DNA of 64,000 nucleotides from a virus: the IMG/VR virus record IMGVR_UViG_3300027749_000065, positions 1-64,000 of that record; one strand, given 5' to 3'. The translations under genes and the position numbers were made by a program. The notes under the pieces were generated by a model that saw only the letters and a program-made list of their open reading frames with translations, did not search any database and was not told the origin of the DNA. Of this stretch, positions 187-45,666 are shown in pieces (the first letter of the stretch is position 1; each line of letters begins with the position of its first letter).

Positions 187-1902
187 ATGAAAAGAATTTT
201 AGATAATAAAGATATTGAAAATATAATAAGATTATATAAAACTGATGTTAAAAGTACGCATAAGTTAAGTGAAATGTTTGGTGTTGGTCATAAAAAGATT
301 TCACAGGTATTAAAAGAGAATAATGTTGAAATAAATAAAAAGGGTGGTCAGGAAAAAATTGGAAATAGTGATATTATTGAAAAATCTAAAATAAATCGTT
401 ATGTGACAGATACAATTGGTCATAAATTAATTGTGGTATGTAAAAAAACAAATAAAATCTTTGATGATGTAAATAATGTATCTGGTTGTTTGACAAGACA
501 TATTGTTGAAACATATGGTGATGTTGACATTCCGGTCACAAATTACCAAAGAAAAAAATATGAACATATCAATAATAAGAAATGGTTTGAAGAATATTTT
601 GATATAAGAGAAATACTAAAAAAAGATTATAGGAAATGTTGTTTATGTGACTGGGAGACTACTGATATTGAAAATAAAACTGGATGTTTTGAGACTCATA
701 TCAATAGTGTTCATAAAATAACATTAAATGAATATTTAGAAAAATTTCCACAAGATATTAAATACCATAAAACTTATTTAAAGGAAAAAGAAAGAATTAC
801 TGAATTTTTAGATGAAAAAAATTATGTGAGATGTAAGTTATGTGATCAAAAAATGAAAACAATCACCAATAAACACCTTATGGAAAAACATAACATTTCT
901 TGTTATGATTATAAGATAAAATTTCCAAATGAAATATTATCATCAAAATTGACTAGAAGTAAAATGAGTCATAATACTAAGATGAGTAATATTAATATGT
1001 CTCCAACATGGTCATCAAGTGGTGAAATTGAGTTAAGGGAATTTATTGAATCTTTAGGTTTTAAAACTGAAAAGGGTAAAAATAGAAAAATTTTAAATGG
1101 TAAAGAGATAGATATTATAATACCAGAGTTTAAAATTGGGATAGAGTACAATGGTTTATATTTTCATACCGAAAAAATGGGTAAAAATAGTTCATATCAT
1201 TTGAATAAAACAATTGAATGTAATAAAATTGGTTATAAATTAATTCAAATATTTGAAGATGAGTGGGTTGTAAAAAAAGATTTAGTTAAAAGTAAAATTA
1301 GACATATTTTAAAAATAAATAATGGTATTAAAATTGGTGGAAGAAACGTTATCATAAAAAGAATCGACTCATTATTAAAGTCTAATTTTTTAAACATAAA
1401 TCACATACAAGGAAACGATAATTCAAAAATACATTATGGTGGATTTTATAAAAATGAATTAATTGGTGTGATGACATTTAACGATAAAAGAAATATGACA
1501 AAAAACAAAGATGAACAATATGAATTATCAAGGTATTCAATTAAAGAAGGATATGTTGTTAATGGGTTGGCATCTAAATTTATAAAAACATTTAAAAATG
1601 AATATTCCCCAAAAAATATTATCAGTTTTGCTGATAGAAGATGGACATTAGATCCTGAAAATAATTTATATATTAAAATGGGGTTTAAATTAGTTGGTAT
1701 AAACAAACCTACCTACACTTATTACAATTCAAAAAAAAATAAATATAAACGTTTTCATAAATTTGGTTTTGGAAAAAACTCTTTAAAATTAAAACATCCA
1801 GATTTAGATTTTACAAAATCAGAAAAAACATTAATGAATGAACTTGGTTATGAGAGAATTTGGGATTGTGGGATGTTTAAATATGAATTATTTTTTGATT
1901 AA
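187..1902 (+). CDS. Free-standing homing endonuclease (zinc fingers plus PD-(D/E)XK-like nuclease)
   Basis: A 571-residue mobile endonuclease. After an N-terminal helix-turn-helix-like stretch there are two C2H2-type fingers (CCLCDW...H...H near residue 155-175; CKLCDQ...H...H near 217-235), each followed by a LxEYLEKFP/YKIKFP-like segment. The nuclease core near residues 300-330 holds NGKEIDI and IGIEYNGLYFH, a PD-(D/E)XK-like active site. The last 180 residues form a domain with NHIQGN, LSRYS and SFADRRW. The core and tail are clearly paralogous to the gene at 44143. The gene stands alone behind its own promoter, between a gene end and the SAP-like protein, so it is probably a homing gene that targets a neighbouring conserved gene. 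The start at 187 is the first ATG after the promoter. Confidence 0.85.
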   Translation: MKRILDNKDIENIIRLYKTDVKSTHKLSEMFGVGHKKISQVLKENNVEINKKGGQEKIGNSDIIEKSKINRYVTDTIGHKLIVVCKKTNKIFDDVNNVSGCLTRHIVETYGDVDIPVTNYQRKKYEHINNKKWFEEYFDIREILKKDYRKCCLCDWETTDIENKTGCFETHINSVHKITLNEYLEKFPQDIKYHKTYLKEKERITEFLDEKNYVRCKLCDQKMKTITNKHLMEKHNISCYDYKIKFPNEILSSKLTRSKMSHNTKMSNINMSPTWSSSGEIELREFIESLGFKTEKGKNRKILNGKEIDIIIPEFKIGIEYNGLYFHTEKMGKNSSYHLNKTIECNKIGYKLIQIFEDEWVVKKDLVKSKIRHILKINNGIKIGGRNVIIKRIDSLLKSNFLNINHIQGNDNSKIHYGGFYKNELIGVMTFNDKRNMTKNKDEQYELSRYSIKEGYVVNGLASKFIKTFKNEYSPKNIISFADRRWTLDPENNLYIKMGFKLVGINKPTYTYYNSKKNKYKRFHKFGFGKNSLKLKHPDLDFTKSEKTLMNELGYERIWDCGMFKYELFFD

Positions 1903-1924
1903 TAATTTTTTTTAACTATATTTG
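1894..1924 (+). promoter_or_regulatory. Bacteroidota-type promoter
   Basis: TTTG at 1894-1897, exactly 19 bases, then TATATTTG at 1917-1924. This is the best match in the window to the Bacteroidota -33/-7 consensus. The ATG follows four bases later, so the leader is very short or absent. Confidence 0.65.
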
Positions 1925-1928
1925 TGTA

Positions 1929-2237
1929 ATGGGAGAAATTGAATATGAAAAGTTACGTTTGGATGTTTTACAAAAATTAATTGAGGAACGTGGTATTGAA
2001 TGTAAATCAAATAAAACAGAAATAATAAAACATCTTATAATGGATGATGAAGGAAAGTATATTAGAGAAACAACATATGAAAAATACGATAAAGATATGT
2101 TCTTATGTGGTATTGACATAAAAAATCAAAAACACATTATGGACATGAGTAAACTAATAGAAAAAAAAGAAGCAAAAAGATTTAATATGTATTCAAATAA
2201 TAGAATACATTATATAACAAAACAAAAATTAATGTAA
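1929..2237 (+). CDS. SAP-like small protein of unknown function
   Basis: A 102-residue protein. Residues 8-42 (LRLDVLQKLIEERGIECKSN..EIIKHLI) have the two-helix spacing of a SAP-type nucleic-acid-binding motif. The rest is lysine-rich with no recognised domain. The stop overlaps the start of dCMP deaminase (TAATG), so the two are probably translationally coupled and transcribed from the host-type promoter at 1894-1924. The SAP assignment is by eye and the role is unknown. Confidence 0.7.
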   Translation: MGEIEYEKLRLDVLQKLIEERGIECKSNKTEIIKHLIMDDEGKYIRETTYEKYDKDMFLCGIDIKNQKHIMDMSKLIEKKEAKRFNMYSNNRIHYITKQKLM

Positions 2238-2677
2238 TGGAGTGGAATGAGTATTTTTTAGGTATTGCAGAACAAGTAAAATTAAAATCAAAAGATATTA
2301 ACACACAGATAGGTGCAGTTATCGTTGGTAGTGATAAGGAGATACTTTCTACGGGTTATAATTCATTTCCAAGGGGTTTGGATGATACGAAAGAAGAACG
2401 TCAGGAAAGACCTGAAAAATACTTTTGGATGGTTCATGCCGAAGCAAATGCAATATATAATGCTGCGAGAGTTGGAACACCAATAAAAGACTCTTCAATG
2501 TATATTACATCAGGTGTACCATGTATGGATTGTGCAAGAGGGATTATAAACTCTGGTATTAAGAAAGTATATTGTAAACGAGTTTGTACTACTACAAATA
2601 AAGATATGTGGGAAGAACACCAAAAACGTAGTATTGATATGTTACATGAATGTGGTGTGGATGTTATATTTTATTAG
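2237..2677 (+). CDS. cd: Deoxycytidylate (dCMP) deaminase
   Basis: Converts dCMP to dUMP for dTTP synthesis. The 146-residue length fits phage dCMP deaminases. The zinc site is visible: HAEANAI near residue 74 supplies the His and catalytic Glu, and PCMDCA near residue 95 supplies the two Cys ligands. The N-terminal KSKDINTQIGAVIV is typical of the family. The ATG overlaps the upstream stop. With the dUTPase at 17-19 kb it supplies dUMP, consistent with a phage that makes its own nucleotides. The 3' end overlaps the convergent gene on the other strand by 14 bases. Confidence 0.95.
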   Translation: MEWNEYFLGIAEQVKLKSKDINTQIGAVIVGSDKEILSTGYNSFPRGLDDTKEERQERPEKYFWMVHAEANAIYNAARVGTPIKDSSMYITSGVPCMDCARGIINSGIKKVYCKRVCTTTNKDMWEEHQKRSIDMLHECGVDVIFY

Positions 2678-3164
2678 GTAATTGATCGTAATAATTTTTT
2701 AATTGATGTTCATATTCAAAATATTTTATATTATCCGGTGGGTTATAATTAACCATTTCTCTACCTTTAATAACCAAACCATCATAACCTAAATCTAACA
2801 TTTCAGTTCTTATATCAGTTTGATTAAAAAATTCATTAGGTTTATATGAGATATTACGTTCTTTACACCAATTATTAATTACATTTTGAAGAAAGATTTC
2901 TGCCAAATTTGTATCATGAACAACTTTTGGTGTTTTTGGAATTGCGTTTAATACGAAATAAACTTTACCGTATTTGTTTGCCATGTCTTTATTACCTAAA
3001 AACGCAGTATATAAACCAGAACCAAATCTACCTCCACCATTGTTTTCTTTTCCAAGTTCTGTAACACCACGTAATGTCACGTTTTTACGTTTCCATTTGA
3101 GATAATCTTTATGAGATTGTTCGTATAATATTTTAAATTGATTTTCTGTTATAATTATTTTCAT
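2664..3164 (-). CDS. ADP-ribosyltransferase-like protein with candidate capsid-targeting leader
   Basis: A 166-residue protein. The leader MKIIITENQFKILYE ends in LxE at residue 15, the type of site cut by T4 prohead protease gp21. The body has an ADP-ribosyltransferase look: LRGV near residue 32 (candidate NAD-binding Arg), GRFGSGLYTAF near 45-56, A.KYGKVYFV near 62-70, and LGYDGLVI.GREMVNYNP near 127-147. T4 packages an ADP-ribosyltransferase (Alt) with such a leader, so a packaged, injected modifier of host proteins is a reasonable inference. It overlaps the upstream kinase-like gene by ATGA and is last in its operon. The ART assignment is by motif only, and the catalytic Glu cannot be fixed by eye. 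Confidence 0.65.
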   Translation of the reverse strand: MKIIITENQFKILYEQSHKDYLKWKRKNVTLRGVTELGKENNGGGRFGSGLYTAFLGNKDMANKYGKVYFVLNAIPKTPKVVHDTNLAEIFLQNVINNWCKERNISYKPNEFFNQTDIRTEMLDLGYDGLVIKGREMVNYNPPDNIKYFEYEHQLKNYYDQLPNKI

Positions 3165-4087
3165 AATAACGATTTAATAATTCTATTAATGTAGTTTGGT
3201 GGAGTTCTTTTTATGTTATTTTGATTGGTTACCGAACCTTTAATCCATTCGCTTAAATCACTAATTTCATTATAGTCAACATCAGTATCATCATCAATTA
3301 AATCAACGTATTTACTCCAAGTCTTATCATAACCTTCCTTTGTCATCATTTCTAAAAAATCAGCTGCCATTGGGTGTTTTTTTCTTATAAAATCAATAAC
3401 TTTTGGTGAAATGTGTTTATTTAAATTTTTTAATAATATTTCATTAATTTGTATATAATATTTATTGATTAATTTTGTTATTTTTAATTTTTCTAGTATG
3501 ATTATAAAATATTCTTTTTCATCTTTTCCGATGTATCTTTTCACATCATAAACTTCAGCAAGATGTTGTGGTGTTTTTCCAATTAATTTATTTGAATTAA
3601 CCGCTTCGGTTTTATCGGTAGTTATTTTTAATACTTTATCGTTTCCGATGTCGTATGCCATTCCAAACTCACCACCCTTACCTAATTTTCTATGTTTTAA
3701 TTCTGTGAATTTTTTAATTATTTTAGATAAACTTCTATTATCAATATTAAGTTTTGTTTCATCTAACTCTAAATTTTGTACATCAGTTTCAAAGTTTTCA
3801 AAAAAATTTCCAAAACCAATATCGAAATAACCTATATTACCATTCTTTTTAAAACCGATATTATTTAAATTAACAAAATCTTCAGAATTAATATGATAAT
3901 ATTTTAATTCATCGATTATCCCAATAAATTGATTAAAAACCCATAAAAGTTTTTTATCATCAATTTTAACATTAGGTTTATCATTATAAACATAATAATT
4001 AATCAAGATTTCGGATACATAATCAATATCATTACTTTCAGTTAAAATTAATTTTTTTAATTGTGATTCGTTTAATAAGATTTTCAT
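3161..4087 (-). CDS. Protein-kinase-like (N-lobe) protein with candidate capsid-targeting leader
   Basis: A 308-residue protein starting MKILLNESQLKKLILTE, a leader of the same class ending in LxE. Near residues 135-160 it has GKGGEFGMAYDIG followed by VLKITTD, which looks like a kinase glycine loop and the beta-3 lysine, then a hydrophobic hinge (FIIILEKLKI). No HRD-like or DFG-like motif is visible after the hinge, so the C-lobe is divergent, truncated or pseudokinase-like. It is coupled by ATGA overlap to the ART-like gene. The pairing of kinase-like and ART-like proteins with the same leader suggests a packaged host-takeover set (inference). Confidence 0.6.
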   Translation of the reverse strand: MKILLNESQLKKLILTESNDIDYVSEILINYYVYNDKPNVKIDDKKLLWVFNQFIGIIDELKYYHINSEDFVNLNNIGFKKNGNIGYFDIGFGNFFENFETDVQNLELDETKLNIDNRSLSKIIKKFTELKHRKLGKGGEFGMAYDIGNDKVLKITTDKTEAVNSNKLIGKTPQHLAEVYDVKRYIGKDEKEYFIIILEKLKITKLINKYYIQINEILLKNLNKHISPKVIDFIRKKHPMAADFLEMMTKEGYDKTWSKYVDLIDDDTDVDYNEISDLSEWIKGSVTNQNNIKRTPPNYINRIIKSLL

Positions 4088-4116
4088 ATTAATTAAAGTT
4101 ATTATATTAAAAAACC

Positions 4117-4890
4117 TTATTTATCATTTGATAATTTAGTATCTTTTATGAATTTAGTATGAGAATTTTTATAAGATTTTTGTGATTCATCTTCCACATC
4201 TTTTGTGTATTGCCAGTTCCAATATAAATTATCGTTTGGTTTGAAACCATAAAATCTATGTACTTCTTTTTGTAGATTATTTACATTTTCACCATTCCAA
4301 TTTTGACCAACACATATATAACCAGTTTCAATATCTTTTATTATATTAGTTTCTCCAAGTGTTGTATGTCTATTCTCCAACCAATTTAATCTTTCAATTA
4401 GATTTTGATAATACATATTAGTTTGTCCCCATCTTATTGAACTAAAAAAAATAACAGTATCAGATTCAAACAATTCTTTAGATATTTTCCATAACTCGTC
4501 AGATTTGTTATTGATATTCACCCAACATCTATGATGTCCTGTTGGGTTCTTATTTTTATCTTTAAGTTCCGCATCTTTTAATCCACAACTATTACCGTCT
4601 TTTCTTGATACATTACCTTCACAAGGTAATATTTTTAGGTCGGTAACATCAATTAAAACACAATCATCACCTAATTCTTCTTTAATATACATCGCTAATA
4701 ATTTTGACTTAGGTATATCAATATTAACTTCATCAAAATTATATCTATTTGAACAACTTAATAATAGAATTTTTTTCTTTGTTTTAAGAATATCTATTGT
4801 CTTTTTTATTGACTTCCAAGCATCTGATTGAACCATTTCCTCGGAAATCATTATTTGTCTTATTCTTTCTATATTTTCGTTTAAATTCAT
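4117..4890 (-). CDS. Flavodoxin-like NAD(P)H-dependent oxidoreductase with leader
   Basis: A 257-residue protein. The N-terminal MNLNENIERIRQIMISE ends in IxE at residue 17. The rest resembles the NADPH-dependent FMN reductase/flavodoxin fold: strand KKILLLSCSNR with a following Ser/Asn-rich loop near residue 40, LLAMYIKEEL helix, VLIDVTDLKILPCEG, and SDTVIFFSSIRWGQTNMYYQNLIERLNWL near 145-175, the usual flavin-contact and dimer region. Several Cys and His residues (near 92-118) could form a metal site. It is first in a minus-strand group behind a late-type element. Its substrate and role in infection are unknown. Confidence 0.65.
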   Translation of the reverse strand: MNLNENIERIRQIMISEEMVQSDAWKSIKKTIDILKTKKKILLLSCSNRYNFDEVNIDIPKSKLLAMYIKEELGDDCVLIDVTDLKILPCEGNVSRKDGNSCGLKDAELKDKNKNPTGHHRCWVNINNKSDELWKISKELFESDTVIFFSSIRWGQTNMYYQNLIERLNWLENRHTTLGETNIIKDIETGYICVGQNWNGENVNNLQKEVHRFYGFKPNDNLYWNWQYTKDVEDESQKSYKNSHTKFIKDTKLSNDK

Positions 4891-4893
4891 ATT

Positions 4894-4911
4894 AATATAA
4901 ATATAATAAAA
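4894..4911 (-). promoter_or_regulatory. Candidate phage late promoter element
   Basis: On the minus strand this reads TTTTATTATATTTATATT, ending three bases before the start of the flavodoxin-like gene. It shares the ATATTTAT core seen before many virion genes. Confidence 0.35.
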
Positions 4912-4959
4912 AAATAAATAAATTTTACCATATTTTACATGTCCAATATGAAATTTTGT

Positions 4960-4977
4960 TATATTTATAATAAAAGG
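4960..4977 (+). promoter_or_regulatory. Candidate phage late promoter element
   Basis: TATATTTATAATAAAAGG lies just upstream of the GIY-YIG gene and is one of the best matches to the recurrent GATATTTATAATAAAA-like element. Confidence 0.45.
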
Positions 4978-4983
4978 TAAGTT

Positions 4984-5877
4984 ATGATAATTTATAAATC
5001 AACAAATAAAGTTAATGGTAAGATATATATTGGACAAACAATTAATAGTTTGGAATCAAGAATTAAAAATCATATCAAAGAAAGTAAAAAAGAAAATGTA
5101 ATAAGACCATTTTTAAAAGCAATAAAAAAATATGGTATTGAAAATTTTTCATTTGAAATAATTGATCATGCAAATAATTTAGACGAATTAAATGAAAAAG
5201 AAATAATTTGGATTAGTGAATTTAATTCAATTTTACCTAATGGTTATAACATAACTGGAGGTGGACAAGGTAAAAAATTAAAGACAACAGATGAATTTAA
5301 AAAAACAATATCAGAAGGATTAAAAAAATCAGAAAAATGGCAAAAAATATTACAAAGTGAAGAATATCAAAATAAAATAAAAAATAATTTTATTGCATTT
5401 AATAAGGGTAAAAAATTCACAAAAGAACATAAAGATAAAATTTGGGAAGGAAATAAAGAACGAATTTTAAAATATAATAAAAGTACCTCTAAAGAATGGA
5501 TTATTGTTGATGTAAATAACAATATAAAAAGAATAACAGGAAAAGAAGAGTATTTTAAAAATTTAGGGATGGATTCTGGTAATATGAGTAGAATGGCAAA
5601 TAAACTAAATAAAAATAAAGTAATTAAAAGATATAACGGATATTATTGTTTCATTAATAATGGGGAATCTGATGAGATAATATTAAATAATGTTATAGAA
5701 TTAGACAATATTTATAAAACAGAGTTTAATATTTATAATAAAATAACACAAGAGACTAAAATAATAAAAAAAGATGAAATATATTCTTTCTGTGTGAGAG
5801 AAAGTCATGATTATTCATCTTTTTTAAGAATGATTAAAGGTAAATTTAAAACATATAAAAATTGGAGTCTTAAATAA
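4984..5877 (+). CDS. GIY-YIG homing endonuclease
   Basis: A 297-residue free-standing endonuclease. The GIY-YIG module is at residues 1-90: IIYKSTNKVNGKIYIGQT holds the variant GIY and the YIG, with a catalytic-type Arg in SRIKNH and Glu near ELNEKEIIWI. GYNITGGGQGK closes the domain. Two NUMOD3-like segments follow (TDEFKKTISEGLKKS and TKEHKDKIWEGN), then a DNA-binding tail with a WIIVDVNNN motif. It faces against the surrounding minus-strand genes and has its own late-type element upstream and a bidirectional terminator behind it, as expected for an inserted mobile gene. Confidence 0.92.
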   Translation: MIIYKSTNKVNGKIYIGQTINSLESRIKNHIKESKKENVIRPFLKAIKKYGIENFSFEIIDHANNLDELNEKEIIWISEFNSILPNGYNITGGGQGKKLKTTDEFKKTISEGLKKSEKWQKILQSEEYQNKIKNNFIAFNKGKKFTKEHKDKIWEGNKERILKYNKSTSKEWIIVDVNNNIKRITGKEEYFKNLGMDSGNMSRMANKLNKNKVIKRYNGYYCFINNGESDEIILNNVIELDNIYKTEFNIYNKITQETKIIKKDEIYSFCVRESHDYSSFLRMIKGKFKTYKNWSLK

Positions 5878-5881
5878 AAAA

Positions 5882-5918
5882 AAATATCTTATAAAATTAT
5901 AATTTTATAAGATATTTT
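5882..5918. terminator. Bidirectional terminator between convergent genes
   Basis: A perfect 16-base stem (AAATATCTTATAAAAT / ATTTTATAAGATATTT) is flanked by A-run and T-run, so it can act on both strands. It separates the GIY-YIG gene from the convergent minus-strand operon. Confidence 0.85.
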
Positions 5919-5922
5919 TTAA

Positions 5923-6666
5923 CTACCAGGCTCTGCAACTCCAGTAGCGCGGGCGATCTCTTGGACCTGGATTATCACATTTCATTCTTGCTCTAAATGA
6001 TTTTCTTCTTTCTGGATTATTTTTCTTAATAACCATTCTTTTACCATGAGCTGATTTACCACCAAAACCAAAGTTTACTTTAACGACTTTACCTTTATCA
6101 TTTTTAACAAAAACTCTAAATTTTTTGATGTCTCCCTGCATGATTTTACCCAACTGAACTTTTCTACCTTGGTATTCGGCTTCATTCAATAATTCATCAG
6201 GAATAAAATTAGTGTTTTGAACTGACCCAAATTCATCTTCAAAGATGATATCATTATTTTCATCAAATTCATTTAAAGAATGTATTTCTTTTAAAATTAA
6301 ATTTGTAATGTCACTTATAATTTCTTCATTATAATGAGTTAATTTAGGGGTATTACCAGTACCACTTTTTGGGTGTGTTTTTTCTGCGTTTCTTTTTTGA
6401 TTTGTCATTCCTTTCTTTTCTTTTTTTGTATATGAACTAGCGGTTTTTGGGGTTTCTTTTGAAACTTTTTTGGATGGTCTACATTTTGGGTAACTTCCAT
6501 CTGCTGCTTTCTTTCTTCCACATGGTGGATGTTTTCCATTAACCTTTTTGCTAACATCTACCCACTTTTCTTTAAACCATCTATTAAGATCTTCTTTTAA
6601 AACCTCACCAGATTCTAAAGATTCTTGAATATATTTTAAATCTTCTTTATTTACTAATATTTTCAT
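5923..6666 (-). CDS. Processed basic head-associated protein (DUF5872-like N-part, Cys/Arg-rich tail)
   Basis: A 247-residue protein of a kind common in marine and T4-like phages. The leader MKILVNKEDLKYIQE ends in IxE. Residues 28-75 hold RWFKEKWVDVSKKVNGKHPPCGR and YPKCRPSKKVS, a DUF5872-like segment. A second candidate cut site, LLNE followed by AEYQGRKVQLGK, lies near residue 160. The C-terminal 85 residues are strongly basic: KKNNPERRKSFRARMKCD, then CRAW at the end with paired Cys. Cutting at both sites would release a small DNA-binding-like peptide, as for T4 internal proteins (inference). It is last in its operon, eight bases after the previous gene and just before the terminator. Confidence 0.7.
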   Translation of the reverse strand: MKILVNKEDLKYIQESLESGEVLKEDLNRWFKEKWVDVSKKVNGKHPPCGRKKAADGSYPKCRPSKKVSKETPKTASSYTKKEKKGMTNQKRNAEKTHPKSGTGNTPKLTHYNEEIISDITNLILKEIHSLNEFDENNDIIFEDEFGSVQNTNFIPDELLNEAEYQGRKVQLGKIMQGDIKKFRVFVKNDKGKVVKVNFGFGGKSAHGKRMVIKKNNPERRKSFRARMKCDNPGPRDRPRYWSCRAW

Positions 6667-6674
6667 TTTATATA

Positions 6675-6890
6675 TTATTTAACTGTTCTCCATCCACCAC
6701 CTTTGGATTTATATCTTTTAGATGCGGCACCATTACAATATGCACTTGGACAGACTTTGTATTTAGATCTTGCCCACGCTAAACAACTAGCCCATAATTT
6801 TGAATTTGTTGGTTTATGTTTTGCTTCATCAATTTCCATTTCTTCATTAAGGATTAATTTTAATTGTTCTTCTGTTATTATTATTTTCAT
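6675..6890 (-). CDS. Small basic protein with capsid-targeting-type leader
   Basis: Only 71 residues. The leader MKIIITEEQLKLILNE ends in LxE at residue 16. The mature part would be about 55 residues, with LWASCLAWARSKYKVCPSAY near residue 32 and YKSKGGGWRTVK at the end. That pattern (W...A...K...PSAY.N.A..K.YK.KGG.WR) is seen in small phage proteins related to DUF5872. Its size, charge and leader recall T4 internal proteins IPI-IPIII. It sits between two genes with the same leader, with gaps of six and eight bases. Confidence 0.7.
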   Translation of the reverse strand: MKIIITEEQLKLILNEEMEIDEAKHKPTNSKLWASCLAWARSKYKVCPSAYCNGAASKRYKSKGGGWRTVK

Positions 6891-6896
6891 AATTTA

Positions 6897-7442
6897 TTAA
6901 TTAATATATGCGTTTAGTTCGTATTTTTTACCCAAGTGAGTTACTTGTATTTGTAATGCTTTTCTTTGTTCTTTTCCGTTTTTGTAAAGGGTTATGGTAA
7001 ATCTATTTGTTTTACCATCTCTTGGTCTAGCAGGACCCAGTCCTATTTTGGTTGATGTTTCATCTTTATCATATTCATAACCTCTTGATTCTGCGTATTC
7101 TAATGCTGAATTTATTGCGGAGGTATAAGAATCATGGTATGTTTCATAATCAGATTTTGATTCATTTAAATTTTGTTGTTCAAAATAACCTTCCATAAAA
7201 TTTGCAACTTCTTCGATGTCATCTTTTGATGTTGTGATATGATCTGCTGCCCAAGCATGTTCACCAGTTATTAATTTATCAAAACCTGGATGATGTTTAA
7301 AATTTAATATTTTTTCAATATCATTTTTCATATTTATTAAATTAGAAAGAACCATATAAGTTCCATCATTTTTTTCTTCTTCCATTTGTTCAGAAAGAAT
7401 TCTTTTTAATTGTTCTTCTGTTATTTTAATTTTTGTTTTCAT
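6897..7442 (-). CDS. Head-associated protein with leader and internal LxE site
   Basis: I place the start at the ATG at 7440-7442, giving MKTKIKITEEQLKRILSE. The longer reading frame to 7478 would overlap the upstream gene and add a non-matching extension, while this ATG is directly preceded by a late-type element. The leader ends in LxE at residue 18. Near residue 100 NLNE occurs at the boundary to a second domain: YHDSYTSAINSALEYAESRGYE, then GLGPARPRDGKTNRF and LYKNGKEQRKALQIQV. This C-terminal domain recurs in phage hypothetical proteins, and its function is unknown. The product is about 181 residues. Confidence 0.7.
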   Translation of the reverse strand: MKTKIKITEEQLKRILSEQMEEEKNDGTYMVLSNLINMKNDIEKILNFKHHPGFDKLITGEHAWAADHITTSKDDIEEVANFMEGYFEQQNLNESKSDYETYHDSYTSAINSALEYAESRGYEYDKDETSTKIGLGPARPRDGKTNRFTITLYKNGKEQRKALQIQVTHLGKKYELNAYIN

Positions 7443-7444
7443 AA

Positions 7445-7459
7445 TATATAAATACTTAT
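7445..7459 (-). promoter_or_regulatory. Candidate phage late promoter element
   Basis: The minus strand reads ATAAGTATTTATATA, three bases before the ATG at 7442. It overlaps the end of the upstream gene and supports the shorter start of the leader-bearing protein. Confidence 0.4.
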
Positions 7460-8826
7460 TTTTCTGATACAATTTCAAATTTTATTTGATCTTTATAATA
7501 AATTTCTTCTGTATGTGTATGACCTTTAAATTCCATATAATATTCTCTTGGAATTAAGTAATTGGTATCTAAATAGAAGGAATTTTCATTGGTAACATCT
7601 AATTGTGTCCAATTGTAAACAATGATATCGGTATGTCCTTCTTTTACAAAAAGTCTATAATAAACTTCTTTAAATAATTGTGTTTTTGGTGTGTCTATTG
7701 ATCTAAATGAAACAACAACTTTTCTTATATCACCTTGTTTTATTTTATCGGATTGTTTTATTCCAAAATATTGTATTGAGTATCTTTGTAGTTCTGTTTG
7801 ATTACCTCCAACTGTAAAATTTGCGGTATATGGATTTGGTACAAATTTTTGTGTTACATCATTAATTAATATACCATCTATGCTTATTGATTTCCACTTA
7901 TCATAGAAGAATCTTCTACCATCACAAATTTGTCCTGAGAGACCCAAGGTGACTTTATAAATACCTTTCCTAACCTTTGTTGTGGTTAATCCTGTAAGTG
8001 TTGAAATTGGGGTCTTTGATGTATCTAATATGTCAACAGTAGGAAGGTAATCTAAATCATAGAAATTAGTTCCTTTTGTAACATATAAATATAAATTTTG
8101 TGGTGTTCTTTCTATGAATAATTCTCTATCATCATCTATTTTATCATCAAAAATTGTTTCCACAAAAGGTTCAAAAAATGTTTGTGTGTATTTAGTAAAA
8201 AAGGCAACTGATTGTTCAAGGGAATTTGTTATACTTTGATATGGGATATCGAAAGCTAAACCCAATCCATAATTGGTAGAACCTCCGGTTAAAATACTAT
8301 TAATGTAGGATGTGATATCTGACTTAATATTTTCATTACCATTATCAAAATGTATTTTGGTTATTGTATTTGCAGTTAATTCATAAATACCTGATTTTGT
8401 CCAACCACTTAATGTTGTTTTATTATACCAGTTAGATGGTTTTGCGTCATATGTATGATTGTCTATCGATATATCTGAAGTGTATTCATAATCATACCCT
8501 GTTCCTTCATCCCAATATTCATCTATTCTAAAAACAATTAAATCAAAAGAACTAGTTCTTTGTTTTCCAGTACCCTTAATTTCATTTCGCATTGTTTCAT
8601 CACCAAATATCGTATTGGTCATGTTAAGATAATGTTTCGTATTATTATCTAATATAAAATCACCATTATTTATTTTGGTTTTTAATTCATTTAAATCTAC
8701 TTTAAAAATAAATTTTGAAAATCCATATCCGTAATATAATTCAGTTGCCGGAAATTTAGCGGTATTTACATACGAATTTTTAATTATTGTATTGTTTTTT
8801 TCAAAATATGAACGATAATATGACAT
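7456..8826 (-). CDS. Putative virion/baseplate structural protein
   Basis: A 456-residue beta-rich protein without recognised catalytic motifs. It follows the gp5-like gene in the same direction and its start is preceded by one of the best late-type elements, so a baseplate or tail role is likely. Visible segments include FFEPFVETIFDDKIDDDR near residue 218 and aromatic-rich C-terminal strands. No leader or signal peptide is seen. It could be a baseplate wedge or a short tail-fibre attachment protein; I cannot choose. Confidence 0.6.
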   Translation of the reverse strand: MSYYRSYFEKNNTIIKNSYVNTAKFPATELYYGYGFSKFIFKVDLNELKTKINNGDFILDNNTKHYLNMTNTIFGDETMRNEIKGTGKQRTSSFDLIVFRIDEYWDEGTGYDYEYTSDISIDNHTYDAKPSNWYNKTTLSGWTKSGIYELTANTITKIHFDNGNENIKSDITSYINSILTGGSTNYGLGLAFDIPYQSITNSLEQSVAFFTKYTQTFFEPFVETIFDDKIDDDRELFIERTPQNLYLYVTKGTNFYDLDYLPTVDILDTSKTPISTLTGLTTTKVRKGIYKVTLGLSGQICDGRRFFYDKWKSISIDGILINDVTQKFVPNPYTANFTVGGNQTELQRYSIQYFGIKQSDKIKQGDIRKVVVSFRSIDTPKTQLFKEVYYRLFVKEGHTDIIVYNWTQLDVTNENSFYLDTNYLIPREYYMEFKGHTHTEEIYYKDQIKFEIVSEK

Positions 8827-16415: not shown

Positions 16416-17108
16416 TTATTTGTTAAATAAATGTACTTTATATTTTTTATAAATTCTTTGTATTAATTCATCTCTTTTTTGGAATGATTCGTCTAATTCT
16501 TTAATACCAATACCTTCTTCATTTTTTAAAATTTCAATTAAATCAAAAATACCTGTGTTTTTTATGTCTGATTGAAAAGGGTCAGCCATTAAAATTAATT
16601 TTGAAGATGTACTTTTTCTTGTTATGAAAGAAACTTGTTCATGTAATGTCGCACCTTGTATTTCATCTGCAATAATACAACAATTTTCAAAAGTAACACC
16701 TCTACAATATTGTATTGGTTCAAAAATTACTTTTTTTTCCATAAAAAGTTTATGTGTTTCAGATTTACCAACAAGTTTTTCCATGTTGTCGACAAATGAA
16801 CGTAAATACTGTTCTACCTTATCATCTGATGTACCGGGTAAAAACCCCATACTTCTACCAATTTCAATAATTGGTTTAGTTAGAATTACTTTTTCAATGT
16901 TTTTTTTCCTTAATTCAGTTAAAGCATAATGAAGTGCTATTGTTGTTTTACCACAACCTGGATCAGCTAACAATAATGTTATCTTATTATTTCTGATAAA
17001 TTCAACAACTTCTTTTTGATTTTCATCTAAAGTAATCTCTAATTGTCTTGGATTTTTTGGAATTTTTTTCTCTTTGTAAACATCATCGGTGTGGTGTTTT
17101 GAAGTCAT
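16416..17108 (-). CDS. phoH: PhoH-like ATPase
   Basis: A P-loop ATPase of the PhoH family (230 residues from the start chosen). Walker A is ADPGCGKTT at about residues 49-57, Walker B is CCIIADEIQ, and the PhoH-specific TKPIIEIGRSMGFLPG and LILMADPFQSD are clear. I start at the ATG at 17106-17108 (MTSKHHTDDV) because a late-type element lies just upstream, while the longer frame to 17186 runs into the terminator. PhoH is frequent in marine T4-like phages, and its role in infection is not settled. Confidence 0.92.
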   Translation of the reverse strand: MTSKHHTDDVYKEKKIPKNPRQLEITLDENQKEVVEFIRNNKITLLLADPGCGKTTIALHYALTELRKKNIEKVILTKPIIEIGRSMGFLPGTSDDKVEQYLRSFVDNMEKLVGKSETHKLFMEKKVIFEPIQYCRGVTFENCCIIADEIQGATLHEQVSFITRKSTSSKLILMADPFQSDIKNTGIFDLIEILKNEEGIGIKELDESFQKRDELIQRIYKKYKVHLFNK

Positions 17109-17116
17109 ATTATATC

Positions 17117-17138
17117 TTTTATTAATAAATATATCTTC
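17117..17138 (-). promoter_or_regulatory. Candidate phage late promoter element
   Basis: The minus strand reads GAAGATATATTTATTAATAA, nine bases before the chosen phoH start. Confidence 0.4.
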
Positions 17139-17176
17139 AAAACCCAATACTTTATATATGTATTTTTTTATAATAA

Positions 17177-17210
17177 AAAAAACCAATCAATTTTAATGAT
17201 TGGGTTTTTT
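17177..17210 (-). terminator. Rho-independent terminator after the dUTPase C-part
   Basis: The stem AAAAAACCAATCA / TGATTGGGTTTTTT with loop ATTTTAA is followed by a T-run on the minus strand. It ends the broken dUTPase transcription unit 16 bases after its last stop. Confidence 0.8.
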
Positions 17211-17226: not shown

Positions 17227-17526
17227 TTATGATCCAGTACTACCAAATCCACCACTACCTCTATCACTATCAGATAATGTATCTGTTTCAATAAATTTAA
17301 TTTGTGGATAAGGTAAAATAATGATTTGAGCACCTCTATCACCAACTTTGTAATCAGCATCAAATGCATCATGTACCTTTTTAAAGGTAGCTTGGATTTC
17401 ACCTCTATACCCACAATTATGTAAACATAAATTATTTCCAAAGAAATTATGATTTTTTTCTACTGTTAAATGATAAATTGGTTTACTATTAGTTTTTTCA
17501 ATTTTTTTTATTTTGGTATATTTCAT
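17227..17526 (-). CDS. dut: Split intein C-part fused to dUTPase C-part
   Basis: 99 residues in two pieces. Residues 1-37 form a typical Int-C: MKYTKIKKIEK, then PIYHLTVEKNHNFFGNN (block F) and CLHN (block G) ending in Asn. The +1 Cys begins the dUTPase C-part: CGYRGEI (motif III), VGDRGAQIIILP (motif IV) and RGSGGFGSTG (motif V). It lacks motifs I and II, which are in the separate gene at 18403-19110. Protein trans-splicing would rejoin NSVGVVD to CGYRGEI exactly inside motif III. The ATG overlaps the end of the endonuclease gene by 29 bases. Confidence 0.92.
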   Translation of the reverse strand: MKYTKIKKIEKTNSKPIYHLTVEKNHNFFGNNLCLHNCGYRGEIQATFKKVHDAFDADYKVGDRGAQIIILPYPQIKFIETDTLSDSDRGSGGFGSTGS

Positions 17527-18346
17527 TTACTTTATTTTTAATCTTATTTAATGTTATTTTTTTTGTTTTATAATCATTTTCCCATATTATAATGACTTCA
17601 TACCCATTATCGGTTAATAATTTAACCCGTTGATTATCATTTTCCCATATTTCTTTAGCGGTTTTTCTAATTTGTTTATGGTAATAATCGGGATTAAAAA
17701 ATAATGGATTACAGTGCCAATAATCACCATAACATTCAATTAATATTTTATTATTTATTAAAATATCAGGAAATGTTTTTCTTATTTTTAAATCTATAAA
17801 TCCATTTGAATCAACTGTTAAATTTTTAATATTTAATTTTAAAAATTCAAATATTTCTTTTTCAAATTTAGATGTTCTTTTACCAACAAATTTAGACTTA
17901 CACTCATTTGAACAATAACCTTCATCCTCCCAATTTGAACTAATATATACTTTATCACAAGAATTACATTTTCTTTTTATTCTACCTGATAAGTGTTTAC
18001 ATTCATTTGAACAAAATTTAGAAACTTTTCGATAATTCCAAGTTTCATATTCTTTACCACAATGATCACATGAAAATTTATTTTTTTTTAATTTTATAGT
18101 ATTATTATTTTTCTGTTGATTCTTACTTGCACATGATATTGAGCAAAATCTTCTTTTAGTGTAATTTTGAACCTCAACTTCTTTATCACATTCTTCACAT
18201 TTAATAATTTTTCTTTTTCTTAATGGATTTAATATTGTTGACATTGAATTGATTCTACATTCATTTGAACAATATTTTGAATGATCTCTATTTGTTAAAA
18301 ATTCTTTACTACATTGTAAGCATATTTTTTCTTGTTTTTCACACAT
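17498..18346 (-). CDS. Vsr-like homing endonuclease inside the fractured dUTPase
   Basis: 282 residues. The first half holds five Cys-rich fingers of the C..C...YCSN.C type (for example CLQCSKEF..SKYCSNEC, CDHCGKEY..FCSNEC). The second half is a Vsr-type nuclease: FPDILINNKILIECYGDYWHC, then EIWENDNQRVKLL and VIIIWENDY. This is the architecture of the endonucleases found between split-intein halves in fractured phage-type genes. It lies between Int-N and Int-C of dUTPase in the same direction. It has a late-type element of its own and overlaps the Int-C gene. Confidence 0.92.
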   Translation of the reverse strand: MCEKQEKICLQCSKEFLTNRDHSKYCSNECRINSMSTILNPLRKRKIIKCEECDKEVEVQNYTKRRFCSISCASKNQQKNNNTIKLKKNKFSCDHCGKEYETWNYRKVSKFCSNECKHLSGRIKRKCNSCDKVYISSNWEDEGYCSNECKSKFVGKRTSKFEKEIFEFLKLNIKNLTVDSNGFIDLKIRKTFPDILINNKILIECYGDYWHCNPLFFNPDYYHKQIRKTAKEIWENDNQRVKLLTDNGYEVIIIWENDYKTKKITLNKIKNKVNEIYQNKKN

Positions 18347-18363
18347 ATAACCACATTCTATTA

Positions 18364-18375
18364 CAATAAATATCC
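18364..18375 (-). promoter_or_regulatory. Candidate late promoter of the endonuclease gene
   Basis: The minus strand reads GGATATTTATTG, 17 bases before the endonuclease ATG, in the short gap after Int-N. The endonuclease may be expressed separately from dUTPase. Confidence 0.4.
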
Positions 18376-18402
18376 AATAGAATGTAAAAGAATATGATAT
18401 AT

Positions 18403-19110
18403 TTACATAAATCTTAAGATTTCGTCATTTTCTGTTAAATCAAAAACTTTTTTCCATCCTGATTTAGTAAAAACTTCTTTTTCATGTGGTAATTCTACAA
18501 TATCTCCATCTTCTGTGGTGATTCTCAATAAATCTTTATTTTCTACTATCCACATATCTGTAACCATATCAGTTTCTATTGAATTTAATTCTTCGTTATA
18601 TGATAAAATTGGTATTGATATATTTTCAAATAAATCTTCAACATTAATATCCCCATTAATAGTTTTTATTTTTGTTCCAGATGGAACACAATCTACAACC
18701 CCGACTGAATTTGTTAATAGTAAATCATACTTTCTAACAGATGATCTTGGGAACACTAATCCAACATAACCTATAGGTATTTCTAATGCAATTCCAAAAC
18801 CGTATGTTATATCTACATTAGTTTTGTTTATTATTTCAGTTATTGTTAAATCCATTCCCGCATCCCCATCTTTTGAATATGATGGTATAACTGCATTTTC
18901 TTTTAGTTTTTTAATTTTAATCTGTAATGATTTGAGATTAGATGTCATACTTTCTTGTACATCGGTATTTAATTTTGTTAATAGATCATTTAAATCTGTA
19001 ATAAAATTTAAATCAATCTCTTCCTCATCTTCAGATTTTATTTGATTCTCAAAACCTTTTAGTTGTTCAATGTAATCTTTAATCTCTTCTTTTTCCATGT
19101 TCTTTTTCAT
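18403..19110 (-). CDS. dut: dUTPase N-part fused to split intein N-part
   Basis: 235 residues in three parts. Residues 1-70 are a charged coiled-coil extension not found in ordinary dUTPases. Residues 70-140 hold dUTPase motif I (DGDAGMDL) and motif II (FPRSSVRKYD) up to NSVGVVD. The Int-N follows: CVPSGTKIKT (block A, Cys1), ITTEDGDIVELPHEKEVFT (block B with its His) and GWKKVFDLTENDEIL, ending in a stop after 95 intein residues. It lacks motifs III-V. Two Met codons (19110, 19098) could start. The product should trans-splice with the 17227-17526 product to give dUTPase, which removes dUTP and supplies dUMP. Confidence 0.92.
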   Translation of the reverse strand: MKKNMEKEEIKDYIEQLKGFENQIKSEDEEEIDLNFITDLNDLLTKLNTDVQESMTSNLKSLQIKIKKLKENAVIPSYSKDGDAGMDLTITEIINKTNVDITYGFGIALEIPIGYVGLVFPRSSVRKYDLLLTNSVGVVDCVPSGTKIKTINGDINVEDLFENISIPILSYNEELNSIETDMVTDMWIVENKDLLRITTEDGDIVELPHEKEVFTKSGWKKVFDLTENDEILRFM

Positions 19111-20018: not shown

Positions 20019-21245
20019 TTACTTGGTGATATTTTTAAAAAATTCGACCCTATCTTTACACACATTTCTTAATGCGAATTTATCTTTAACAGTTTCATAA
20101 AGTCGATTACCAAGATCTTCAATCATGTTTGGGTTATCAACCAAACGTTTCATATGTTTAGCCCAATCTTTATGGTTTCTATTTGTTTCAACTAACAACG
20201 CATTACCTTTATTATTAAATTGTCCACTATCTACTGCAGATATTAAATCTAAATTATATGGTTTAACATTACTAGCAATCAACGCCTTTTTATGGAAACC
20301 TGCTTCAATGACCTTTAATTGTGATTTATTTGCATTAAAATAAGACTCAACTAATGGTGCTAAAGAAATGTCAAAATAATTATAATTTATTGCATATTTT
20401 GCAACATCTAATGTCCATCTTCTTCTATATGTTTCATTTTCATCTTTATACTCTGGAATCGGTGTAAATGATTTAAGATATGTTTCGTAAGATGAATTAG
20501 TTACTCGATAATTATCGGTAAATATTTGTTCATACTTATACCAAACAGTCTCTTCTGGTTTTATTGGTCTTTGGGTTACTTGTTTTGTTTCTTGGTTGAA
20601 TTCACTAACAGAACCTCTTGTATCGAATCCACATAAAACAAATTGTGTATTTTCAGGTTTTTCATACTGAACACTTGAAATTCCATTTCTAAGTAATTCT
20701 AAGTCATGTAAATGACTACTTCCTCCTAACCATCCAAATCTTATCTTATCAGATTTAGTTGGGTTTGGTTGAAATTGTGATTCTTCATCATTAACCGCAT
20801 TTGGAAATATTATGGTATTTTTTAAACCTAATTTTTCTTTAATTGTATTTGCAAATAGAGATGTTGTTGTGGTGATATAGTCAACCAATCTTAACATCTC
20901 TATTTTTTTCTCGGCAATTTTATGTTCTTTAATTTGGTGGTACATTGGGTGTCTCATATCAACAACCCAAAGGTCATCAATATCCATTACTGTTTTAATT
21001 CCCTTTTCTTTTAACCATTTAATACGGTTAATATTCGCCTCATGAGTAGTAGGTACAACAAAACTATGGAAAACAACTACATTATAATCTTTGAAGAAAT
21101 CATCATTATCTTCAGGATTAAAAGAAATGTCTACGTGTATTTCATCTGAGTAGTTATCACCAATATATCTAAATGGATCTAAAATTCTAAATTTACCCAC
21201 ACCAAATTTATCTGATGGAATTGCTAATATCTTAATTTTTGACAT
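20019..21245 (-). CDS. GT-B-fold glycosyltransferase
   Basis: 408 residues. An N-terminal Rossmann half (KILAIPSDKFGVGKFRILDP; VVVFHSFVV) leads to TVMDIDDLW near residue 88 and TTTTSLFANTI, which are typical of phage GT4-like enzymes. The C-half has RFGWLGGSSHLHDLELL near residue 170 and the donor-site region NKSQLKVIEAGFHKKALIAS near residue 330. It is the third glycosyltransferase in this 8 kb region, with unknown substrate. Confidence 0.78.
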   Translation of the reverse strand: MSKIKILAIPSDKFGVGKFRILDPFRYIGDNYSDEIHVDISFNPEDNDDFFKDYNVVVFHSFVVPTTHEANINRIKWLKEKGIKTVMDIDDLWVVDMRHPMYHQIKEHKIAEKKIEMLRLVDYITTTTSLFANTIKEKLGLKNTIIFPNAVNDEESQFQPNPTKSDKIRFGWLGGSSHLHDLELLRNGISSVQYEKPENTQFVLCGFDTRGSVSEFNQETKQVTQRPIKPEETVWYKYEQIFTDNYRVTNSSYETYLKSFTPIPEYKDENETYRRRWTLDVAKYAINYNYFDISLAPLVESYFNANKSQLKVIEAGFHKKALIASNVKPYNLDLISAVDSGQFNNKGNALLVETNRNHKDWAKHMKRLVDNPNMIEDLGNRLYETVKDKFALRNVCKDRVEFFKNITK

Positions 21246-35220: not shown

Positions 35221-36195
35221 ATGACATTTAACGATTTCAAAACATTTTTTTCAAGTAACCTAAAATGGGTATATCGAGATAAATGTGATGCAGTATTTAA
35301 AAGACAATTTACTAAAATTGGTAAATATCATTTTTGTGAGAAAAATAATAAATATGGTATTCTCGATGAAGATGGTAGATGGGGGTTTGAAAATACCATA
35401 AATACTAATTCAAGATGTGCATTGGAATTATATAATATTTATCTTGAGTTTGGTAATCAAAAATTAGATTTTTTTGAAAATACAGAATATTCCGTTAATA
35501 AATTATGGAATTTTATTGAAGATAATTTTGAATTACTATTCACATATAATATAGAAACAAAATATTACCATAAGTTTAGACTTATTTGTAATCTTTCTTG
35601 GTCAAGAGGTCAAATAACATCAGTCTTTTTTTATTTAATACATAAAAATATATTTCCTGACACAATTAAAACAATACTTGAGTTAGAAAGAGGATTATTT
35701 TTAGATTTAAAAGGAATAGATGGGTTATTAAATCAAAAAGATGGAACAGAGTTATCTTTACAAATAAAGAGTGGAACTTTTGAAAAGAAGAAATGTTTTT
35801 ATATTATTGATGGTGCTCAGAATGATTTTAATAGTCCAGCCAATTATTATTGTTACATTTATATTGGTGAAGAGAATAATCAAATTATTGTTTTTGAAAA
35901 TAAAAAAGAAGGTATAATGTCAAATAATAGTCAATGTATTATTGACGAAGAAATTGTAAAATATATAGATATGGAAAATAAAGAAAATATATCACAAAAA
36001 CTAATGGAAATACTATTATTTTGTTCAAAAAATGAATTTGTTTTTGAATTAAAAAATAATGAACCAGAAAACGGTTTTAAAATCGAACTTAATCCTGAAA
36101 AAGTGGTAACAATATCAATTAATGATTTTGAAGATAAAGGATTATATAATTTATTGGAAGAGAACTTTAATAAATTAAAGAATCTCCCCCAATAA
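35221..36195 (+). CDS. Putative PD-(D/E)XK nuclease-fold accessory protein
   Basis: 324 residues. LELERGLFLDLKGIDGLLNQ followed by LSLQIKSGTF near residues 158-190 has the spacing of a restriction-type nuclease core: Glu, Asp, then Q-x-K. No zinc finger or LAGLIDADG motif is seen. It lies alone between two minus-strand genes behind a host-type promoter, and its end overlaps the helicase gene by 21 bases. It may be an early accessory nuclease, perhaps anti-host or anti-phage (inference). Confidence 0.5.
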   Translation: MTFNDFKTFFSSNLKWVYRDKCDAVFKRQFTKIGKYHFCEKNNKYGILDEDGRWGFENTINTNSRCALELYNIYLEFGNQKLDFFENTEYSVNKLWNFIEDNFELLFTYNIETKYYHKFRLICNLSWSRGQITSVFFYLIHKNIFPDTIKTILELERGLFLDLKGIDGLLNQKDGTELSLQIKSGTFEKKKCFYIIDGAQNDFNSPANYYCYIYIGEENNQIIVFENKKEGIMSNNSQCIIDEEIVKYIDMENKENISQKLMEILLFCSKNEFVFELKNNEPENGFKIELNPEKVVTISINDFEDKGLYNLLEENFNKLKNLPQ

Positions 36196-44142: not shown

Positions 44143-45666
44143 ATGAAAATAGAATTAAAATGTAAAAATTGTAATGAGTCATTTATGACTGATTTTAAAT
44201 TTAGAGATAAAAGTTTTTGTAATAGAAAATGTTATTTTGAGTATGCAAATGAAAATAAGTTACTGGGTAATAAGAAAAATGAATCAGTAAGGGAGAAGAG
44301 AATTTGTGTTCAATGTGGAGATGAATTTTTGGAGAGAAAAAAATATGAAAGAAAATTATGTTCTGAAAAATGTAGAAAAGAATGGAATATTACTGAGGAT
44401 AATAAAAATGACAGAATAAAAAAATCAAAAGAATCGATGATTAATAAATATGGTGTTGATTGTCATTTTAAAACTAATGATTTCAAACTTAATGTTAAAA
44501 ATTTAATGTTTGAAAAACATGGTGTTTATCACCCAATGGAAAAAAAAGAATTTGTTGATAAATTAAAAAATACCTTTCGTGAAAATCATTTACCAAAATT
44601 AATACAGGAATTAAAAACAAATAATATAGAATTAATTGATGATTACATAAATAATAAAGATAAAAATACAAGTAGAACATATAATTTTAAATGTTTAAAA
44701 TGTGATAATATATTTTCAAGTACATTATTAGGTTCTGGTAAAATACCTATTTGTAGAAAATGTTATCCAATAATTAAAAACTCATCTATAGAAGTCTTTA
44801 TTAAAGATTTATTAAATGAAAACCAAATAACACATGTAGATGGTAATAGAAAAATTTTAAATGGTAAAGAAATTGATATTTTAATTAAAGAAAAAAATAT
44901 TGGGTTCGAAATAAATGGTAATTATTATCATTCAGAAATAAGTGGAGAAAAAGACAAAAATTATCATATTAATAAAAGTAAAATATGTTATGATAATAAT
45001 ATCAAATTAATACATATATATGAAGATGAAATAATGTTAAAATTTCCGATAGTTAAATCTAGAATTAAAAATATATTGGGAATTTCTGAAAATAAAATAT
45101 ATGGTAGGAAATGTATTGTTAAAGAAATCGATAAAAAAACAGCATCTAATTTTTTAGATAAAAATCACATACAAGGTAATTGTGTCGATAAAATTAGATT
45201 AGGTTTATTTTATGAAAACACATTGGTTTCTATTATGACATTTTCAAATAAAAGAAAAGTATTAGGTAATAAATCCGCAATAAATGAATTTGAATTAATA
45301 CGATTTTGTAATATAATTGATTCAAATGTAATTGGATCATTTTCAAAATTATTGAATTATTTTATTAACAATTTTTCACCAAATAAAATTATTACATACG
45401 CAGATATTAGATGGTCAGGTTTAAATCCTGAAAGTACAATATACAAAAAATATGGTTTTAAATTTATAGGTACAACACCACCAAATTATTGGTATTTAAA
45501 TAGAGAAAATTATTTAAATAGATACCATCGTTTTAATTTTAGAAAAGATATTTTATTAAAAGAAGGATTTAATAAAATTCAAACAGAATGGGAAATTATG
45601 AAATTAAAAAATTATGATAGAATTTGGGATTGTGGATCAATGAAATTTGAACTAAATTTATTATAA
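44143..45666 (+). CDS. Free-standing homing endonuclease, paralogue of the 187-1902 gene
   Basis: 507 residues. N-terminal Cys-rich fingers (CKNCNESF..FCNRKC; CVQCGDEF..LCSEKC; CLKCDNIF..CRKC) precede the nuclease core KILNGKEIDILI / IGFEINGNYYHSE near residue 245. The C-terminal module has DKNHIQGNCVDKIRLGLFY, LIRFCN, ITYADIRW and RYHRFNFRK. Core and C-terminal modules align closely with the gene at 187, while the finger regions differ, suggesting swapped targeting parts. It is inserted directly after the sheath gene and its last codons coincide with a copy of the sheath gene end, so it probably homes into the sheath locus. Confidence 0.88.
   Translation: MKIELKCKNCNESFMTDFKFRDKSFCNRKCYFEYANENKLLGNKKNESVREKRICVQCGDEFLERKKYERKLCSEKCRKEWNITEDNKNDRIKKSKESMINKYGVDCHFKTNDFKLNVKNLMFEKHGVYHPMEKKEFVDKLKNTFRENHLPKLIQELKTNNIELIDDYINNKDKNTSRTYNFKCLKCDNIFSSTLLGSGKIPICRKCYPIIKNSSIEVFIKDLLNENQITHVDGNRKILNGKEIDILIKEKNIGFEINGNYYHSEISGEKDKNYHINKSKICYDNNIKLIHIYEDEIMLKFPIVKSRIKNILGISENKIYGRKCIVKEIDKKTASNFLDKNHIQGNCVDKIRLGLFYENTLVSIMTFSNKRKVLGNKSAINEFELIRFCNIIDSNVIGSFSKLLNYFINNFSPNKIITYADIRWSGLNPESTIYKKYGFKFIGTTPPNYWYLNRENYLNRYHRFNFRKDILLKEGFNKIQTEWEIMKLKNYDRIWDCGSMKFELNLL

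Follow-up and report, generated by a model that had tools for sequence, protein, structure and literature searches.

The stretch of viral DNA described here, 64,000 nucleotides long and corresponding to positions 1 to 64,000 of IMG/VR record IMGVR_UViG_3300027749_000065 (hereafter the window), carries on its minus strand a dUTPase gene (dut) that is divided between two open reading frames (ORFs), each fused in frame to one half of an intein, with an EDxHD/Vsr-like endonuclease gene between the halves and in the same direction. The enzyme normally serves to keep DNA free of uracil. The original prediction had read this locus as a fractured gene, and that reading is upheld by the signatures of both dUTPase and both intein halves, by intact relatives and by these halves being the sole dut found. 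The parts of the locus are as follows.

19110-18403, minus strand: N-half ORF, 235 residues; dUTPase motifs I-II and the start of motif III, then Int-N
18691-19110, minus strand: N-extein, dUTPase residues 1-140, with motif I (DAGMDL), motif II (PRSS) and the start of motif III (...NSVGVVD), Asp140 being the -1 residue; PF00692 and TIGR00576, aligned with intact dUTPases
18406-18690, minus strand: Int-N, 95 residues starting with Cys1, stop codon at 18403-18405; TIGR01445 at Cys1, profile matches to the NrdJ-1 and DnaB inteins in the PDB
18478-18489, minus strand: block B of Int-N, Pro68-His-Glu-Lys71, where Lys71 takes the place of the canonical His at B:10; aligned without gaps to 2lwy, 1mi8, NrdJ-1 and the S16 and PM2 uvsW inteins
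17498-18346, minus strand: putative homing endonuclease, 282 residues, between the halves; vsr (TIGR00632), PHROGs endonuclease matches, Foldseek matches to Vsr and I-Bth0305I
17882-18331, minus strand: N-terminal part of the endonuclease, residues about 6-155, four CxxC...CSxxC zinc-finger-like repeats, presumed DNA-binding
17501-17878, minus strand: C-terminal Vsr-like catalytic domain of the endonuclease, residues 157-282, PDILI...IECYGDYWHCNP...EIW.D...IIWEN; conserved block in 10 family members, and Foldseek
17498-17526, minus strand: 29-nt overlap of the endonuclease 3' end and the C-half 5' end, in different frames
17526-17227, minus strand: C-half ORF, 99 residues; Int-C, then the rest of motif III and motifs IV-V
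17416-17526, minus strand: Int-C, 37 residues ending Leu-His-Asn; PF14890 and TIGR01443; block F position 4 is His19 (17470-17472), where the usual residue is Asp
17230-17415, minus strand: C-extein, Cys+1 followed by GYRGEI (rest of motif III), motif IV (GDRGAQIIILPYP) and motif V (RGSGGFGSTG), stop codon at 17227-17229; PF00692

Anatomy of the Interrupted dut Gene

Both halves pass the Pfam cut-off for dUTPase (PF00692, positions 2-82 for the N-half and 72-129 for the C-half), and all five dUTPase motifs are intact in the window. The N-half also matches TIGR00576 (E=5e-11) and, from residue 141, which is Cys1, TIGR01445, while the C-half matches the intein splicing family PF14890 over residues 3-37 (E=1.8e-7) and TIGR01443 above its cut-off. 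The break lies directly 3' of the motif III Asp codon, at its predicted position between NSVGVVD and CGYRGEI. The anticipated Int-C of 37 residues ending in His-Asn ahead of the remaining motifs (17526-17416), its overlap with the end of the endonuclease gene and the 95-residue Int-N with its Cys1 likewise stand; the predicted end of Int-N at 18403 required correction, with the coding part running from 18690 to 18406. A gap of 56 nt separates the N-half from the endonuclease gene, and the overlap between the endonuclease gene and the C-half, which is 29 nt in the window, is 4-35 nt in most other carriers and absent in one (L158). This layout is not a chance product because it recurs in other records, 14 with a cassette of the same family and 29 with a sister family.

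The matches of the halves to the intein families extend as far as the splice junctions, and no group I or group II intron match was found in Rfam. Both results argue against the gap being an intron that carries a homing endonuclease gene (HEG) and is removed at the RNA level, an explanation that has a parallel in phage introns carrying HEGs of a distantly related nuclease type (PMC12350094) and that we consider scarcely credible for dut.

Intact Relatives and Distribution of the Cassette

A search of related phages for an intact dut, which the original prediction had proposed as a check, was fruitful. In 77 loci found with the N-half, dUTPase is contiguous and can be aligned to the joined exteins, so that the break lies at a conserved site of a gene that is uninterrupted in relatives. 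The junction residue is Ser (D|SGYRGE) in all 77 intact dUTPases and Cys+1 in every interrupted one. The gene order glycosyltransferase, 77 residues, 191 residues, dut, PhoH-like, 242 residues is common to the window and most of the intact loci, with the limits that the 191-residue match is missing in some of the latter and that the PhoH-like match is weak (27-32% identity) in some. The intact and interrupted loci are hence a comparison of empty and occupied sites.

Two families of cassette occupy this site. Family A, with the Vsr-like nuclease, is found in 14 IMG/VR records besides the window. Family B, found in 29 records (L239-L267), combines a related split intein, located at the same position in dut, with an unrelated, TnsA-like endonuclease of 294-297 residues, the C-terminal domain of which matches TnsA (1f1z and 1t0f, probability 1.00). 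The wide occurrence of the arrangement, the second endonuclease type in a sister family and the lack of the block B His in both intein families all go beyond the original prediction. In every carrier read, with either cassette, the host gene is dut. Scans with the L086 and L162 sequences gave no additional carriers, and Int-N matches in L146, L129, L226 and L269 were left out as weak or as coming from other inteins.

Several carriers depart from the common arrangement. In L151 (309-1856) an intein of the same family lies one codon further downstream (GVIDN|CYRGDL), which looks like a three-base shift of the insertion point. An extra ORF of 87 residues is present in L159 and L160. In L166, L167 and L168 the endonuclease gene is frameshifted at about 4600, identically in the three assemblies, and both intein halves are open. 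In L156 (3504-4828) an intact dut is followed directly by a free-standing sister of the family A endonuclease, an arrangement that is possibly a precursor or an escaped form.

A separate intact dut elsewhere in the genome would speak against a fractured gene. A PF00692 search found no dut beyond the two halves in the 98.8-kb record of the window or in the records of nine other carriers, which are 56-348 kb long, so that the two halves stand alone in 10 of 10 records. One might suppose that dut is a decaying pseudogene and that the phage no longer needs dUTPase, and among the nine distinct family B sequence types read, eight of which have both halves, there is one contig (L250) with a C-extein truncated by deletion and a shortened endonuclease. 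Nearly all carriers are complete, however, the exteins have ratios of nonsynonymous to synonymous divergence (dN/dS) below 0.4, and the window retains all five motifs with no other dut in the record, which together make a dead gene very improbable.

Recent Transfer of the Cassette

The closest carrier to the window is L003 (IMG/VR 3300020731_000016). The two differ at 7 positions across the 1275-bp cassette and at about one-fifth of extein positions, and the tract of identity ends 12 nt ahead of the intein and 5 nt past it. Synonymous divergence (dS) between them is 0.018 in Int-N, 0.014 in the endonuclease gene and 0 in Int-C. The corresponding values are 0.70 and 0.60 for the exteins and, for two genes upstream, 0.31 and 0.45. 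The low dS of the cassette and the high dS of the exteins mean that at least one of the two phages acquired the cassette well after the divergence of their dut genes, and these comparisons show that it moved between phages recently. The intein of L005 is 88% identical to that of the window over a dUTPase core of 54% identity, whereas the core of the intact L024 is 76% identical.

The Endonuclease

The predicted zinc-finger, Vsr-like nature of the gene between the halves is substantiated by several lines of evidence. Residues 191-258 match TIGR00632 (vsr) with an E-value of 8e-4, and the PHROGs matches of this ORF are to endonucleases. Its AlphaFold model has a mean predicted local distance difference test (pLDDT) score of 76, and the top Foldseek matches are Vsr (1cw0 and 1vsr) and the catalytic domain of I-Bth0305I (3r3p), with a probability of 1.00 and modest E-values. 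The model thus suggests that the C-terminal catalytic fold is shared with I-Bth0305I and Vsr, from which the window endonuclease differs by its N-terminal array of four zinc-finger-like repeats. This N-terminal part gives a weak zf-FCS_1 match and is modeled as repeated hairpin/helix units. A sequence search of the PDB with the endonuclease profile gave weak zinc-finger matches only and none for the catalytic domain, and no relative of the endonuclease was found in 84,980 bacterial and archaeal genomes, a weak negative obtained with the endonuclease alignment and narrow peptide patterns.

An Altered Intein Active Site

In the 18 distinct carriers aligned, Cys1, the C-terminal His-Asn and Cys+1 are invariant and match the residues of class 1 inteins. 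The class 1 block B sequence Thr-x-x-His is replaced by Pro-x-x-Lys in family A, where Pro68 and Lys71 occupy the Thr and His positions in all nine inteins aligned, and by Thr-x-x-Ser/Thr in family B. The corresponding residues in the ungapped comparison are TFDH in 2lwy, TANH in 1mi8, TPDH in NrdJ-1 and TGNH in the S16 and PM2 uvsW inteins. His occupies position 4 of block F (F:4) in eight of the nine family A inteins, L151 having Tyr instead, and family B has Asp there. Class 3 inteins have Cys at F:4 and lack Cys1, whereas here Cys1 is present and F:4 is His. Between the window and L005, dN/dS is 0.15 for Int-N and 0.05 for Int-C, which is purifying selection.

The block B His is the most conserved intein residue and is almost universal in active inteins. 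Because it is missing, the N-S acyl shift must have other help in these proteins. From the conservation described above, the dut split intein can be read as functional, albeit with changes in its active site. We give about even weight to a wider proposal, in which the split inteins of dut form a widespread, mobile group able to splice with no block B His. There would be two solutions: in family A, Pro-x-x-Lys and a His at F:4, to which position the histidine would seem to have shifted; in family B, Ser/Thr at B:10 and, in block F, the usual Asp. These solutions are perhaps tuned to the N-extein, whose last residue (-1) is the catalytic Asp of dUTPase.

Proposed Mechanism

We consider it very probable, from the sequence evidence, that dut is a fractured gene with a mobile split-intein cassette and that its halves splice in trans to restore dUTPase. 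The two halves would be translated separately and Int-N and Int-C would associate, after which trans-splicing through Cys1, Asn37 and Cys+1 would yield an intact dUTPase in which motif III reads GVVD-CGYRGE, with Cys where relatives have Ser. In family A, Lys B:10 or His F:4 might replace the block B His in the N-S acyl shift, and the -1 Asp may matter, both of which are speculative. In characterized dUTPases the motif III Asp activates the attacking water in catalysis. The break lies directly after this Asp, and therefore neither half should be active alone and splicing should be needed for activity. As to mobility, we infer that the Vsr-like endonuclease would cut an uninterrupted dut at the conserved motif III sequence, and that repair from a carrier would copy Int-N, the endonuclease gene and Int-C as one unit.

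Certain points weigh against this proposal, the first of which concerns splicing. The block B His is absent throughout both families, and its loss could lead to slow or failed splicing. The halves might then not splice at all, with a degenerate intein serving only to hold the dUTPase pieces together non-covalently. This would accord with the loss of both the His and the Thr of block B in family A and of the His in family B, and a precedent, cited in PMC10448857, is a phage ribonucleotide reductase that is split by a HEG and works as two peptides. On the other hand, Cys1, His-Asn and Cys+1 have remained invariant among carriers whose inteins often share only 40-60% identity, Int-N and Int-C are both under purifying selection, and the change from Ser to Cys at +1 in every carrier fits splicing chemistry only. 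A purely non-covalent association is hence unlikely.

The remaining points concern the records and the route of transfer. The carrier records come from metagenomes and are possibly incomplete. The approximately unbiased (AU) test rejects one clade for all 11 family A exteins (p=1.7e-9), a result weakened by the long branches present, and with the five closest carriers alone it does not reject a single origin (p=0.23); the case for transfer therefore rests on the step in DNA identity and on dS. Two rows listed as intact, L071 and L052, were mis-extracted fragments, and short rows were left out ahead of the tree. In addition, the identity tract shows very little co-conversion of the flanks, and general recombination rather than endonuclease-driven homing could be the source of the pasted cassette. 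The split intein would then be real and the endonuclease gene a passenger, moved by ordinary recombination between co-infecting phages. The identity tract, which ends almost exactly at the intein and is shorter than usual for co-conversion, is in line with this, and endonuclease activity is predicted from sequence and fold. Ordinary recombination does not readily explain why two unrelated endonuclease families lie in the same gap of the same gene, why a free-standing sister endonuclease adjoins the intact dut of L156, or why dN/dS of the endonuclease is 0.18, and we regard a mere passenger as improbable, though somewhat less so than halves that do not splice. Trans-splicing with endonuclease-driven mobility thus remains our preferred reading.

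The Phage and Neighboring Mobile Elements

The window has a low guanine-plus-cytosine content of 27%. The phage is of the contractile-tailed, T4-like kind, and distant similarity links its tail sheath protein to those of Microcystis phage Mel-JY01, cyanophages and other T4-like phages. Other mobile elements are evident in the window. At 36175-39021 on the minus strand is a gene for an SNF2/UvsW-type helicase with a contiguous intein containing a LAGLIDADG domain. Further probable mobile or nuclease genes lie on the plus strand at 187-1902, 4984-5877, 44143-45666 and 46521-47426, and these encode restriction-type/MucR-like and zinc-finger proteins, a GIY-YIG protein and a Mom-like protein among structural genes. 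In L003 the glycosyltransferase and PhoH-like genes (1608-3971 and 6941-8716) each have a contiguous intein, that of PhoH seeming to start with Ala, whereas the window copies (20019-21245 and 16416-17186) have none. In L143 (record G000:64001-80000) a gp41/DnaB helicase gene at 2038-4907 contains, at the Walker A site, a contiguous intein and, later in the gene, split intein halves (...GDKLLIKQ* and MLKHELNL...YTHN) in separate ORFs that are 14 bp apart with no endonuclease between them; it is a second fractured gene in that phage. An NrdB gene with an in-frame intein (AECHVEGTEIL...FIGGN) follows at 4922-6874.

Relation to Known Systems and Implications

Fractured genes with split inteins and EDxHD/Vsr-like endonucleases were reportedly described by Dassa et al. 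in 2009 (NAR 37:2560), and the dut locus is of this known kind. We know of no dUTPase among the host genes of that study. No report of a split intein in dUTPase was found in the literature searched, which lay outside the Dassa 2009 host-gene list, and to that extent dUTPase is an unfamiliar host, as the original prediction had remarked. As far as the same literature shows, three features are new: dUTPase as host, the use of one site by a second type of nuclease and the lack of a block B His. Fractured genes of the Dassa type, which are cited in PMC12350094 and PMC10448857, share with dut a gene in two ORFs each with a half intein, a co-oriented Vsr-like endonuclease in between and a phage-type nucleotide or replication function; they differ in host and in having Thr-x-x-His in place of Pro-x-x-Lys in block B.

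The nearest Int-N sequences found in isolate phages (36% identical to family B and 31% to the window) are those of uvsW in Salmonella phage S16 (NC_020416, 104626-107352) and Proteus phage PM2 (NC_055727, 101056-103788). In both phages uvsW is fractured and, as in family B, a TnsA-like ORF lies between the halves and, as at dut, overlaps Int-C, and the loci are annotated merely as helicase and hypothetical protein. They differ from dut in the host gene, in the canonical block B (TGNH) and in a middle ORF with no detectable relation to the family A endonuclease. Another comparison is with Tko CDC21-1, an archaeal intein that, unlike those of dut, is not split. It is a natural intein without the block B His, for which a different residue compensates (PMC4031507, PMC6333167), and its orthologues were called a small group in 2018 (PMC6333167). 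Its Lys58 lies outside the conserved motifs, whereas the lysine of the dut intein is B:10 itself. Finally, the dCTP deaminase of cyanophage CL131, an enzyme different from dUTPase and of the same superfamily, has an intein with demonstrated self-excision that is contiguous with an internal endonuclease rather than split (PMC6293099).

The results add dUTPase to the genes colonized by split inteins and reveal that the arrangement is common. Because two unrelated nucleases exploit the same split site, the split intein, not the nuclease, is suggested to be the stable partner. A single family displays unoccupied sites, a fresh transfer, an endonuclease in decay and a free-standing sister endonuclease, and the life cycle of a fractured gene can therefore be studied at one locus. 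If the dut inteins splice well, they would be natural examples lacking the most conserved intein residue, with a bearing on the catalysis of the first splicing step, and could be a source of new orthogonal split inteins for use in protein engineering.
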